Source of the DNA: Tabrizicola sp.
GTDB lineage: Bacteria; Pseudomonadota; Alphaproteobacteria; Rhodobacterales; Rhodobacteraceae
Length of the DNA stretch: 39,099 nt
Direction of reading: 5' to 3'
Assembly (NCBI RefSeq): GCF_016792905.1
Contig: NZ_JAEULP010000011.1
Location: 1 to 39,099 of the forward strand
In this document: piece by piece, positions 3,059 to 39,099 of the stretch
Position numbering within the stretch: position 1 is the stretch's first letter
How the letters are laid out: each line of letters begins with the position of its first letter
Notes under the pieces: model-generated
Database searches by the model: none
Seen by the model: only the letters and a program-made list of their open reading frames with translations
Told to the model about the DNA's origin: nothing
Position numbers and translations under genes: made by a program

Positions 3059-3960
3059 CCGCGCTTCGCGCCTGGCTGCAAGACCCAAGCCCGACCTCGC
3101 GTCGGCAGGCCCGGCTCGGGCAGTTGTGGCTGGCCTGGCTCCGCATCCGCCGCAACCGGCTGGCGATGGCGGGGCTGATCATCGTCGCCATCCTGCTGCT
3201 CGTCGCGGCTCTGGCGCCCTGGATCGCCCCGCATGATCCCTTCGTGCAGAACCTGGCCAACCGGCTGAGGCCGCCGGGCACCCCCGGCTACATTCTTGGC
3301 ACCGACGATTTCGGGCGCGACATCCTGTCCCGTATCATCTACGGCGCGCGGATCACGCTCTACATCATCGCACTGGTCGCCGTGACGGCCCCGGTCCTCG
3401 GCCTTCTGGTCGGCACCGTCGCGGGCTACTTCGGGGGCTGGATCGACGCCGTCCTGATGCGGCTGACCGACATCTTCCTCGCCTTCCCCCGGTTGATCCT
3501 GGCGCTTGCCCTTGTCGCCGTCCTCGGACCGGGGATCGAGAACGCCGTCCTCGCCATCGCGCTGACCGCCTGGCCGCCCTATGCCCGCGTCGCCCGGGCC
3601 GAGACGCTGACCATCCGCGGCTCGGACTACATCTCCGCCGTCAAGCTGCAGGGTGCAGGCGCCCCCCGCATCATCCTCGGCCATGTCGTGCCGATGTGCC
3701 TGCCCTCGGTCATCATCCGCGTCACGCTCGACATGGCAGGGGTGATCCTGATCGCGGCCGGCCTCGGCTTCCTCGGCCTTGGCGTCCAGCCACCGCAACC
3801 GGAATGGGGGCTGATGATCTCGTCGGGCCGCAAGTTCCTGTTCGAGCAATGGTGGGTTGCCACCATGCCAGGTCTTGCCATCTTCATGGTCTCGCTCGGC
3901 TTCAACCTTCTGGGCGATGGCTTGCGCGACGTCCTCGATCCGAAGAGCGCCCCGAAATGA
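3055..3960 (+). CDS. Peptide ABC transporter permease, DppC type
   Basis: Second inner-membrane permease (301 aa). It has the cytoplasmic N-terminal extension with RRNRLAMAGLIIV leading into the first membrane helix, the family motif LGTDDFGRDILSRIIYGAR (about residues 80-100), five more hydrophobic segments, and an EAA loop around residues 190-215 (YISAVKLQGAGAPRIILGHVVP). The C-terminal part contains EWGLMISSGRKFLF and LGFNLLGDGLRDVLDP, both usual in DppC/OppC. The start was set at ATG 3055 because it overlaps the preceding stop, although the open frame runs further upstream. It ends in another ATGA overlap with the first ATPase gene. Confidence 0.92.
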   Translation: MTALRAWLQDPSPTSRRQARLGQLWLAWLRIRRNRLAMAGLIIVAILLLVAALAPWIAPHDPFVQNLANRLRPPGTPGYILGTDDFGRDILSRIIYGARITLYIIALVAVTAPVLGLLVGTVAGYFGGWIDAVLMRLTDIFLAFPRLILALALVAVLGPGIENAVLAIALTAWPPYARVARAETLTIRGSDYISAVKLQGAGAPRIILGHVVPMCLPSVIIRVTLDMAGVILIAAGLGFLGLGVQPPQPEWGLMISSGRKFLFEQWWVATMPGLAIFMVSLGFNLLGDGLRDVLDPKSAPK

Positions 3961-34908: not shown

Positions 34909-36135
34909 TCACAACACCCGGTCCAGCGCCGCGATCAGCCGCGCCACCTCATCGGCCGAGGTGTAGTGCACCGCCGACATCCGCAGCACGCCCTTCTCCC
35001 GGTCGATCCCCAGCGCCTCCAGCGGCCGCACCGCGTAGAAATCCCCGGCCCAGCAGGCGATCCCGTTGCGGCCCAGCTCCTCCGACACCGGCTCGGCCGC
35101 TTGGGTAAGCTCCACCGCCACCGTCGGCGCCCGCCGCCCGGCGTCCCGCGGCCCCAGCAGCCGCACGTCATTGCGGCCCGCAAGGTAGTCGAGCAGCGGC
35201 TGGATCACCGCAACTTCCTGTGCCCGCATCAGGTCATGCACCCCCCGGTTCCGCGCCGCCGCATCGCCGCCGACGCCATGCCGCGCCGCCAGCGCGTCGA
35301 TGTAGTCCGCCATCCCGGCGCAGGCCGCGACCTGCGCATGGTCCGGCCCTGCGGGCGTGTGCCGTTTGTACAGGACCCCGTGATTGAAGAAATGCGCCTG
35401 CCCCGGCAGTTCGAAGCCAAAGCCTTCTCGGATCACCATGATCCCCTGATGCGGGCCATAGGTCTTGTAGGCCGAGAACAGGTAGACATCGCAACCCAGG
35501 GCGGGCACGTCCGGGAACCCGTGCGGCGCGTAGCTCACCCCGTCCACCACCGTCCTCGCCCCCGCCGCGCGCGCCAGCGCACAGATCGCCGCCACGTCGT
35601 TGATCTCGGCGATGACGTTGGAACAATGCGGGAAGCAGACCAGCTTCACCTTCCCGTCCGCCAGCAGCGCGTCCAGCGTCTCCAGGTCCAGGGATCCCGT
35701 CGCCGGGTCCAGCGTCCACTCCCTGACCTCGATCCCCTCTTCGGCCAGCCGCCGCCAGACGCCCGAGTTCGCCTCGTGGTCCTGGTTCGTCACCACGACG
35801 GCGCCGCCCGTCCCCGCCAGCCGCTTCCGCACCGCTTGCGCCAGCACATAGGTATTGGCGCTGGTCGAAGGCCCGAACGACACCTCCTCCCGCGCCACAC
35901 CCATCATCGCCGCCAGCCGGGTCCGCGCCTCGTCCATCTCGGCGCCGCCCGCCTGCGCCCCTGGATAGGGCCCATAGGGCTGCACCTTGCGGTCGCGGTA
36001 GAACCGGGTCAGCCGGTCCACCACCTGCACGCAGGGGTAGCTGCCCCCCGCGTTCTCGAAGAAGGCATGGCTCGACAGCACCGGCGAACGGAACGCCGGA
36101 AACTGCGAACGGACGAAATCAAGATCAAGCGCCAT
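34909..36135 (-). CDS. Class V aminotransferase / cysteine-desulfurase-like PLP enzyme
   Basis: PLP enzyme (408 aa) of aminotransferase class V, in the group labelled cysteine-desulfurase-like or isopenicillin-N-epimerase-like. ATG 36135 (MALDLDFVRSQFPAF) has AGGAG 8 bases upstream; the frame to 36543 runs through the structured leader and is not used. Motifs: FFENAGGSYPCVQVVDRL, VSFGPSTSANTYVLAQ, the His in NQDHEANSGVWRRLAEEG, CFPHCSNVIAEIND, VVDGVSYAPHGFPD with the PLP-N1 Asp, and YLFSAYKTYGPHQG with the Schiff-base Lys. A loop cysteine for persulfide transfer, as in SufS, is not apparent, so true desulfurase activity is doubtful. It is a monocistronic gene behind an unusual leader and divergent from a PotD-type gene. 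Confidence 0.85.
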   Translation of the reverse strand: MALDLDFVRSQFPAFRSPVLSSHAFFENAGGSYPCVQVVDRLTRFYRDRKVQPYGPYPGAQAGGAEMDEARTRLAAMMGVAREEVSFGPSTSANTYVLAQAVRKRLAGTGGAVVVTNQDHEANSGVWRRLAEEGIEVREWTLDPATGSLDLETLDALLADGKVKLVCFPHCSNVIAEINDVAAICALARAAGARTVVDGVSYAPHGFPDVPALGCDVYLFSAYKTYGPHQGIMVIREGFGFELPGQAHFFNHGVLYKRHTPAGPDHAQVAACAGMADYIDALAARHGVGGDAAARNRGVHDLMRAQEVAVIQPLLDYLAGRNDVRLLGPRDAGRRAPTVAVELTQAAEPVSEELGRNGIACWAGDFYAVRPLEALGIDREKGVLRMSAVHYTSADEVARLIAALDRVL

Positions 36136-36155
36136 CCTGCGGCTCCTCGTTTGGG

Positions 36156-36276
36156 CCGCGGACCGGATACCTGCGCGAGGCGGGGATATCCCGGTCCGCG
36201 GCAGGTCTTCCAGCCAGACCGACGGATGTCTCCCCACCGGCCAGTGCCGGGCTTTCCCGGCATCACCGCAAGACCT
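36156..36276 (-). ncRNA. Structured 5' leader, candidate cis-regulatory RNA of unknown class
   Basis: Upstream of the class V aminotransferase the minus-strand leader has two adjoining folded units. Unit 1 (36203-36276): a perfect 7-bp closing helix (AAGACCT at 36270-36276 with AGGTCTT at 36203-36209 on the plus strand) encloses a 7-bp hairpin (36245-36251 with 36256-36262) and a possible second arm. Unit 2 (36156-36201): a perfect 11-bp stem, CCGCGGACCGG with CCGGTCCGCGG, around a 24-base loop, ending 8 bases before the ribosome-binding site (36144-36148). The aptamer-plus-platform layout resembles a riboswitch, but no known class was recognised, and no T-run follows unit 2. Confidence 0.5.
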
Positions 36277-36545
36277 AGCGTCCCGCGCCGCGCCCCGCAA
36301 TCCCCTCCGCAAGCAATCCCGCCCATCCCCGGCCGAATCGCTGCCCGAAGCGGCAGGCTGCCCCCGCGTCACCCGGGCATGTGGCACTTTCTTCGGCACA
36401 GGCCGCAAATTTCCCTTGTCCTTTCGCCCGCCGCCTCCCAACTTCGCTGCATTGGGACGGGGCCGAGGGGGCCCGCGCCCCCAACAGCTTGACAACAAAA
36501 CCGGGGCCGCCGCCGGGCGCGCCGCCGACCCACAGAGGAGCAACC

Positions 36546-37592
36546 ATGACCCGTCACAGCCTTTCCCTGTTCAGCGCCGCCTCGGTCCTGGCATTCTCCG
36601 TCGCCGCCCACGCGGCCGACCCCGAGCTTACCGTGCTCGACTGGGCCGGCTGGGAAATCGACGGGATGCTGCAACCCTATGTCGACAAGAACGGCGACAA
36701 GCCCAGCTACGTCTTCTTCGCCGATGATGACGAGGCCTTCCAGAAAGTGTCCTCGGGCTTCAAGGCCGACGTGGTCCATCCCTGCGCCGCCGCCGTTCCG
36801 CGCTACCGCGACGCCGGCCTGATCGAGCCCTGGGATGTCTCGAAGATCCCGGAGTTCGCCAACATCCCCGAGCGGCTGACCAAGCCCTTCACCGATGACC
36901 AGGGCGTCTGGTTCGTGCCGACCGACTATGCCTACACCGCCATCGCCTACAACGCCGAGACGGTCCCGGTCGAGGACGTGGCCACGATCCAGGTCTTCGC
37001 CTCGGACAAGTACGCCGGTCGCATCGCGCTGCCCGACAACACCGACGACGTCTGGTCGCTCGCCTTCATGGCGACCGGCGTGACGTCGTGGGACAACGTG
37101 ACCGACGAACAGTTCCAGGCCGCCGCCGACTGGCTGCGCAAGGTGCACCCGAACGTCCGCGCCTACTGGTCCGACCCGTCCGAGCTGTCGCAGCTCATGG
37201 CCTCGGGCGAGGTGCAGGTCGCCTGGTCCTGGAACGACCCGGTCGCGATCCTGACGGCCGAGAAATTCCCCGTCGGCTTCAACCGGGCACCCGCCGAAGG
37301 TGCCGCCACCTGGTACTGCGGCTTCGTCAACATCAAGGACGGCCCCGGCAAGGAAGACAAGGCCTATGACTTCATGAATTCGCTTCTCGCGCATTCCTCG
37401 GCCCAGCCGCTGCTCGACGCCATCGGCTACTCGCTGTCGAACGACGCCGCGATGGCCGAAATCCCGGCCGAGGCGCTGAAGGCCGCCTATGTCGACCCTG
37501 TGACGACGCCGCTTTTCGTGCAGTCGCCGCCGACAAACGAATTGCGCGAAAAGATGATCGAGGAATTCGAGCTGATCAAATCGGGGTTCTGA
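36546..37592 (+). CDS. PotD-type extracellular substrate-binding protein
   Basis: Periplasmic binding protein (348 aa) of the spermidine/putrescine (PotD/PotF) family. ATG 36546 follows AGAGGAG; the signal peptide MTRHSLSLFSAASVLAFSVAAHA is cut before ADPELTVLDWAGWE. Family pieces: ADDDEAFQKVSSGFKADVVHPC, WFVPTDYAYTAIAYNAETV, LSQLMASGEVQVAWSWNDPVAIL, and YCGFVNIKDGPGKEDKAYDFMNSLL. It is followed by a strong terminator and no permease or ATPase gene is near, so it is an orphan subunit within this window. The 269-base upstream gap (36277-36545) has no gene; a TTGACA at 36489 lacks a matching -10. Ligand may be a polyamine or another small cation or amino-acid derivative. Confidence 0.88.
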   Translation: MTRHSLSLFSAASVLAFSVAAHAADPELTVLDWAGWEIDGMLQPYVDKNGDKPSYVFFADDDEAFQKVSSGFKADVVHPCAAAVPRYRDAGLIEPWDVSKIPEFANIPERLTKPFTDDQGVWFVPTDYAYTAIAYNAETVPVEDVATIQVFASDKYAGRIALPDNTDDVWSLAFMATGVTSWDNVTDEQFQAAADWLRKVHPNVRAYWSDPSELSQLMASGEVQVAWSWNDPVAILTAEKFPVGFNRAPAEGAATWYCGFVNIKDGPGKEDKAYDFMNSLLAHSSAQPLLDAIGYSLSNDAAMAEIPAEALKAAYVDPVTTPLFVQSPPTNELREKMIEEFELIKSGF

Positions 37593-38713: not shown

Positions 38714-38816
38714 GCCGGCAGCAATAGAACGCAAACCTTGCCAAATCCTTAACGACCGCAGCCAACTCATTGCTTTCAAACCGTATTCCGAAAATGCCCA
38801 CCGTGGACACCCGCCC

Positions 38817-38845
38817 TTGCACCCCCCGCCCCCGCCCCCTATATT
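38817..38845 (+). promoter_or_regulatory. Sigma-70-type promoter of the tmRNA gene
   Basis: TTGCAC (38817-38822) and TATATT (38840-38845) are separated by 17 bases of C-rich sequence. Both hexamers are close to the housekeeping consensus, as expected for a strongly expressed stable RNA; the transcript would start near 38852. Confidence 0.75.
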
Positions 38846-38851
38846 GATCCC

Positions 38852-39099
38852 TGTCGGGGGCAACCCCGACTATGGCGATAAACGCACCTGTAATAATCGG
38901 CTCGGACCCGGGGGCGGTACCCGGCGGCTCCACCAAATCCCGTTCGTTGCGGGGGCAAGGGGCCGAAATAGGATCGACGAACGACCAAAGAGGCCAGCTT
39001 TCGCTCGGTGAGGTACCACCGTTATCGGTCCATGATCACAGTTGCCAACGACAACCGTGCTCCGGTGGCGCTGGCCGCGTAAGCGGCTCGCAAGACCAA
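38852..39099 (+). ncRNA. ssrA: Circularly permuted two-piece tmRNA (ssrA), truncated by the window end
   Basis: Rescues stalled ribosomes by trans-translation. The acceptor piece comes first (about 38852-38935): a 5' hairpin GTCGGGG-GCAA-CCCCGAC, a T-arm CCGGG/CCCGG with an unusual GGCGGTA loop, and the 3' end CGGCTCCACCA with CCA at 38933-38935. A 23-base spacer (38936-38958) is followed by the coding piece starting GGGGCCGAAATAGGATCGACG at 38959. GGGGCCG pairs with CGGCTCC and includes the G3-U pair that alanyl-tRNA synthetase recognises. The tag frame 39044-39082 encodes ANDNRAPVALAA and ends in TAA; this hydrophobic ALAA tail is the ClpXP degron. The permuted order is established for alphaproteobacteria. 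The 3' part of the coding piece lies beyond the window. Confidence 0.93.

Follow-up and report, generated by a model that had tools for sequence, protein, structure and literature searches.

The class V PLP-dependent enzyme gene of this Tabrizicola sp. is preceded by a conserved leader element that extends from about position 36264 to 36139 on the minus strand of the window (the whole 39,099-nucleotide stretch of DNA analysed here), and we put at roughly 0.55 the probability that this is a conserved, uncatalogued cis-acting leader RNA working as a riboswitch-type translational OFF switch. Read 5' to 3', the element is made up of three hairpins, P1, P2 and P3, and a switching region that reaches the ribosome-binding site (Table 1). 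The original prediction had described an aptamer unit followed by an expression platform, acting in cis and perhaps on translation. A structured leader with competing helices by the Shine-Dalgarno (SD) sequence is indeed present, and conservation, covariation, fixed position and the helices by the SD all argue for a cis-acting role, probably on translation; the internal anatomy that had been proposed, that of the first unit in particular, does not hold. Sequence comparison speaks directly for the element itself, for P2 (and P1 in the wider set of leaders), for two partners of the P4 5' arm, for complementarity to the SD and for the association with the gene.

Table 1. Features of the leader and of the flanking genes (positions in the window).
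Feature	Position	Strand	Pairing or remarks
Inferred promoter	36272..36300	-	-35 TTGCGG 36300-36295, 17-nt spacer, -10 TAGGTC 36277-36272
Hairpin P1	36246..36261	-	36261-36256 with 36251-36246
Hairpin P2	36217..36242	-	36242-36233 with 36226-36217
Core hairpin P3	36200..36215	-	GGCUGGAAGACCUGCC, GGC-U-GG-AAGA-CC-U-GCC; nearly invariant
P4	36155..36202	-	36202-36193 with 36164-36155; first three bases common to P3 3' strand
Alternative near hairpin	36174..36200	-	36200-36196 with 36178-36174 and 36192-36190 with 36184-36182; same 5' arm as P4
Putative SD sequestor	36139..36159	-	36159-36153 with 36146-36139; SD GGAG 36146-36143 inside
Class V PLP-dependent enzyme gene, VC1184-like	34909..36135	-	start codon at 36135; Pfam Aminotran_5
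PotD/PotF-like binding-protein gene	36546-37592	+	divergent from the PLP gene, with the leader between them

The region 36130-36290 folds at -88.2 kcal/mol (z -2.93), beating 200 of 200 shuffles. We sought orthologues of the PLP gene in 61 genomes, its own included, and a covariance model of the first part of the element (R1, 79 positions) matches 26 of the 32 genomes of the same genus; of the other six, five possess the gene but no element, and the last, which is 59% complete, gave no gene match. In the same-genus alignment the conserved block is found in 24 of 27 cut leaders, the three without the element (L021, L025 and L027) being excluded from the 24-row alignments. Two leaders outside these 27 (L024 and L028) lack the element on reading, and L030 holds a fragment of the gene, the remainder of which (L061) carries it.

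Double-sided changes are seen at 8 of the 10 pairs of P2 among the 24 leaders and at 9 of 10 in an alignment of 48 leaders; conservation and covariation are found in P2 and also in P4. G-U pairs are frequent in P2 (at columns 38/63, G-U is the commonest pair of the 24 leaders), and this bears on the idea that a transcription factor uses the core as its DNA operator. The core is a nearly invariant, imperfect inverted repeat (GGC-TGG-AAGA-CCTGCC) that follows a promoter-like sequence between two divergent genes, as an operator might. However, P2 covaries, and its many G-U pairs are sensible in the transcribed strand alone, which indicates that the transcribed strand folds and therefore argues against an operator. 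The 18-mer of the P3 core, CTGGCTGGAAGACCTGCC, has one exact copy in its own genome, at this leader; with up to two mismatches it occurs at 103 places in the 32 same-genus genomes, against 133 for the reversed control. We regard an operator as very improbable.

P1 has double-sided changes at all six of its pairs in the 48-leader, model-fitted alignment, against just one of six in the same-genus MAFFT alignment (n = 24); when RNAalifold folds the whole leader, the three inner pairs of P1 are retained and its three outer bases pair with the gene start. The 48 leaders are the R1 matches with E <= 0.003 out of 56 sources, and the figures that they yield lean towards the model because the alignment was fitted to it: 94.8% of cells are paired, against 78.3% when shuffled and at most 59.7% when slid, the covariation score is 0.370, against 0.112 for shuffles and at most 0.053 when slid, and 15 of 21 pairs have double-sided changes. 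In the same alignment P3 has 99.6% of its cells paired, with hardly any variation, and no pair of P3 has double-sided changes in the same-genus alignment; because its sequence barely varies, its pairing is without proof from covariation. The CU linker and the AAGA loop do not vary at all, and a pseudoknot between them is a possibility that we considered. The marks by which riboswitches are recognised are an aptamer-like domain, covarying helices, a place in the 5' leader and the same strand as the gene, and the element has each of them.

A 7-bp helix (36270-36276 with 36203-36209) had been proposed to close the first unit around a stable hairpin. The two arms are complementary, yet all seven pairs are present in just 2 of the 24 same-genus leaders, so the helix is not conserved; its 5' arm lies in a conserved -10-like element and its 3' arm in P3. 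The stable hairpin that it was thought to enclose consists in fact of two hairpins, P1 and P2.

Upstream of P1 lies a promoter-like sequence whose TTGC and TA are invariant in 24 of 24 same-genus leaders. The pattern TT[GT][AC]-N16-18-TA...T directly precedes the element in 42 of 55 leaders (L108, which is short upstream, and the false L126 match being excluded), against 0.76% of 10,719 random control windows, and among 45 looser matches the TA stands 10 or 11 bases ahead of the model start in 42. Given this fixed spacing, transcription probably starts at the base of P1, at about 36264 (+/-2), which is upstream of 36200, as it must be if the first unit is to belong to the mRNA. A generic E. 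coli-type scan found no promoter at the leader, so that we infer this start from conservation. Element-less leaders of the same genus (L021, L024, L025, L027 and L028) all carry TTGACC about 40-50 nt ahead of the start codon, and several element-less leaders share the stretch CATCCATGG after it; it is as if a short-leader promoter had replaced the switch in these genomes.

Two explanations would do without a sensor or without a structured RNA. In many leaders one reading frame across the core spells WLEDLPR, and some of the changes look synonymous, as if an upstream open reading frame encoded a leader peptide (...WLEDLPR...). Against this, that frame has an ATG, GTG or TTG inside the transcript and before the core in 17 of 55 leaders (ATG in 6 of 55), compared with 21 and 27 for the other frames (excluding L105, whose core the pattern did not match, and the false L126 match), insertions and deletions within P1 and P2 cause frameshifts, and the majority of changes are compatible with the pairing of P3 and P4; a leader peptide is hardly credible. 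The other explanation accepts the structure and denies the sensing, the leader being a constitutive 5' stabiliser, an RNA thermometer or a target of small RNAs (through the AAGA or GAGACA loops, for example). A stable, GC-rich fold close to the 5' end would suit such a role, as would the P2 loop GAGACA, which is mostly kept within the genus; in distant genera, however, this loop shows no conservation, and a stabiliser needs neither a core that is nearly invariant across many genera nor alternative helices. We think a non-sensing structure improbable.

The alternative helices are found in the switching region, between P3 and the start codon. The 11-bp stem of the original prediction (36191-36201 with 36156-36166) is present and conserved in kind, and corresponds to our P4, whose 10-pair version has 85.4% of its cells paired in the 24 leaders; shifting it by 1-3 columns leaves 33.8-43.8%. 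The 5' arm of P4 has a second partner nearby, with which it forms a near hairpin with 94.8% of cells paired. Both pairings covary at column 86, where 7 of the 24 leaders have A in place of G: the G/A change is accompanied by a C/U change at column 145 for P4 (six A-U sequences) and at column 112 for the near hairpin (seven A-U sequences), such that the A86 leaders have U at column 112 in 7 of 7 and at column 145 in 6 of 7. As one base cannot serve both, P4 and the near hairpin are mutually exclusive at this column. On the best gene tree column 86 has changed at least six times, but with 1 of 21 inner branches starred this tree has poor resolution, which makes the number of independent events soft.

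The putative SD sequestor has 95.2% of its cells paired, against 33-56% for slid versions; covariation is seen at one of its seven pairs, and 66 of 500 shuffles do equally well. Given the full leader, RNAalifold independently predicts the SD sequestor, together with P2, P3 and the near hairpin. The GGC/GCC triplets common to P4, P3 and the sequestor (columns 79-83, 148-150 and 164-166) are the point at which these helices exclude one another. Thermodynamic computation on 23 of the 24 leaders (L022 was left out) gives a mean sequestor probability of 0.54 when unconstrained, 0.85 when P3 is forced and 0.33 when P3 is blocked; with P3, the probability is higher by at least 0.1 in 17 of the 23 leaders, within 0.03 in six and lower in none.

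These helices suggest a switch in which GGC and GCC triplets would exchange partners. Transcription would begin at the base of P1, at about 36264, and P1, P2 and the nearly invariant P3 would form the sensing domain. The GCC that closes P3 can alternatively pair with the GGC that ends the 3' arm of P4, and this GGC could instead pair with the GCC right after the SD. Were P3 kept closed, as binding of a ligand presumably would do, P4 would be shortened and the freed GGC would pair across the SD, blocking translation; were P3 to open, the full P4 could form and the sequestor would be lost. The best-supported reading is accordingly worded as bound = OFF, with a stabilised P3 leading to a sequestered ribosome-binding site. 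Some of the computed results count against the switch model. The SD is largely base-paired in all three computations (mean unpaired 0.27, 0.29 and 0.26), P4 and the sequestor compete at their GGC ends alone, and when P3 is forced in the leader of the window itself, the sequestor (probability 1.0) forms alongside the remainder of P4 (0.80). The switching region is different in distant genera, where sequestration of the SD is not evident by eye. In Cypionkella-type leaders (L117, L121 and L123) a 5' arm CACGGCC after P3 could, by eye, pair with either CCGTGG or GGGCCGT downstream, a pair of alternative partners that differs from that of Tabrizicola.

Beyond the genus, a covariance model built from the 48 leaders (R2) matches 37 of 394 genomes of the family at E <= 0.05, far fewer than the 273 of 394 that carry the PLP gene at E <= 1e-100. 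For each of the best 18 family matches (E <= 5.4e-4), the gene that follows is this class V PLP gene. Among the 30 family matches for which there is sequence, which are the ones judged here (nine loci by eye from sequence, with eight further places outside the count), 24 stand before the PLP gene and six elsewhere; the six (L189, L191, L194, L196, L198 and L199) are taken as chance. R2 matches in 385 genomes of the class consist of the window's own leader and L201 and L202, neither of which has a PLP gene; these two we likewise attribute to chance. Among the best 80 orthologous loci listed, 31 leaders match R2 at E <= 0.012, 15 of them being among the 48 training rows and others coming from the same genomes under other names; the matching loci listed include Tabrizicola, Paracoccus sp. 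IB05, Cypionkella aquatica, Fertoeibacter niger, Aliiroseovarius, Marivivens and Leisingera.

Weaker and misplaced matches were also encountered. When the 40 leaders without an in-place family match were searched for diverged copies with filters off, L223, L203, L208 and L235 gave weak matches in the right place and on the right strand (E 0.00012 to 0.046), the rest being weaker or elsewhere than these four. L048, L060 and L051 scored 23.2, 16.7 and 12.5 bits. Matches away from leaders among the orthologous loci listed (L165, L153, L126 at 3268-3334, L134, L147, L175 and L177) are taken as chance. An R2 match in a genome of the same genus (L098, G030 contig 88) equals in score, at 37.4 bits, the weak true copies; it lies inside a long open reading frame with no PLP homologue nearby and is probably a chance match too.

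No convincing copy before another gene was found in the 394 family and 385 class genomes. As one gene family alone is known to carry the element, a leader bound by a protein stays a candidate: some RNA-binding protein, which may be the PLP enzyme, would bind P3 (and P1/P2) and control translation via the same competing helices, and P3, a short and nearly invariant hairpin, suits a protein-binding site. On the other hand, two more conserved hairpins and long-range competing helices exceed what most protein-binding sites have, and we know of no RNA-binding role in the class V PLP enzyme family, which also counts against this explanation; we judge it somewhat unlikely. For the bound partner we favour a small molecule over a protein by about two to one, and a small molecule would then be the putative ligand of the leader.

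As far as Rfam 15 and the open literature covered here go, the leader is an uncatalogued family, orphan and riboswitch-like. At gathering thresholds Rfam 15 matches the whole window with two tmRNA models alone, both at 38813-39099, where an alphaproteobacterial permuted tmRNA gene on the plus strand is cut by the window end. In the leader itself four matches appear at E <= 10, all far under threshold, in agreement with the earlier statement that it fits none of the consensus cores of the cobalamin, SAM, SAH, TPP, glycine, ZTP and fluoride classes, and the loci of 15 relatives have two matches at E <= 10, none in a leader. The B12 box of cobalamin riboswitches is AGCCAGGAGACCUGCC, which part of the element, GGAAGACCUGCC, resembles. 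A cobalamin riboswitch (RF00174) was rejected on the grounds that a search of the whole genome gave no RF00174 match at the leader at E <= 10; the genome has four matches at this level, none on the window's contig, of which two are over the cut-off, and R2 finds no match at those two loci.

Several described elements share features with the leader. The SAM/SAH riboswitch (RF01727), in the part of its description covered here, is likewise confined to Rhodobacterales and directly upstream of one kind of gene (PMC2864571), but that gene is metK, and RF01727 has no match here at gathering or at E <= 10. HRC-8-4, mainly between cco operons, and uORFC-8-2, before cysS, are also conserved intergenic elements of Rhodobacterales only, for which no class V PLP neighbour is described in the sections covered (PMC8632094). 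A riboswitch candidate directly before a putative amino acid aminotransferase gene is similar in its placement; as far as the covered portion of its report goes, it is a three-stem junction with very few highly conserved nucleotides (PMC11109978), in contrast to the successive hairpins and nearly invariant core seen here, and is set apart by this description. The open full texts covered, these three partly, contain no Rhodobacterales motif associated with a class V PLP gene; supplementary lists and most subscription papers were outside the scope of this search, so that an earlier record is possible. Apart from a paper on acuI, literature on the gene cluster and on Rhodobacter leaders yielded nothing relevant.

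What might the leader sense? The PLP enzyme scores 257 bits with TIGR01976, under the cut-off of 352 bits. Its best solved relative is FGM3 (9x4u, 144 bits), followed by cysteine desulfurases (up to 104 bits) and UstD (99 bits); a search of plasmids found three distant homologues. FGM3 is described, in the excerpts covered, as a PLP-dependent lyase that catalyses retro-aldol cleavage of 4-hydroxyarginine (PMC10967133, PMC10367076). At the 31 listed element loci, some of them short upstream, the binding-protein gene is divergent in 26, an acuI homologue occurs in eight and dmdA in two (Aliiroseovarius and Leisingera). NCBIfam confirms dmdA and the acrylyl-CoA reductase family, with the AcuI equivalog model just under its cut-off, and Pfam detects a BCCT fragment in the Leisingera locus. 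A long same-strand BCCT match stands just upstream in 13 of the 49 listed loci without the element. In roseobacter loci such as L150 and L155, the PLP gene is near dmdA, an acuI homologue, BCCT, photolyase and cyclopropane fatty acid synthase genes in varying combinations. DMSP induces dmdA-acuI in Ruegeria, and acrylate acts as a co-inducer, according to the part of the source covered (PMC3338564). Since the enzyme gene is accompanied by an acryloyl-CoA reductase homologue, dmdA or BCCT in some genera, the sensed metabolite may belong to DMSP/acrylate metabolism, DMSP being a marine sulfur compound; these neighbours are a hint and provide leads, and are no evidence of the ligand. We put forward tentatively, as a possibility rather than an expectation, that the leader is a new riboswitch class of Rhodobacteraceae, in which a compact three-hairpin aptamer would sense a metabolite of the pathway of a retro-aldol- or desulfinase-like PLP enzyme, maybe one of DMSP/acrylate metabolism.

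On the other side of the PLP gene, upstream of a photolyase gene (34725-33313), the minus strand has TGATCC-N16-CGTATT at 34774-34747, which resembles the RpoE/ChrR (singlet-oxygen) promoter. Among 57 relatives, 34 have a similar pattern no more than 150 bases upstream of their photolyase gene, compared with 2% of control windows, and on this enrichment a stress promoter of its own probably drives the photolyase gene.

Because the P4 5' arm has alternative partners that covary with it, single-base changes could test the proposed switch. Orphan riboswitch candidates point to important metabolites that nobody has looked for, and in this case the identity of the ligand would directly suggest the substrate or product of the PLP enzyme.
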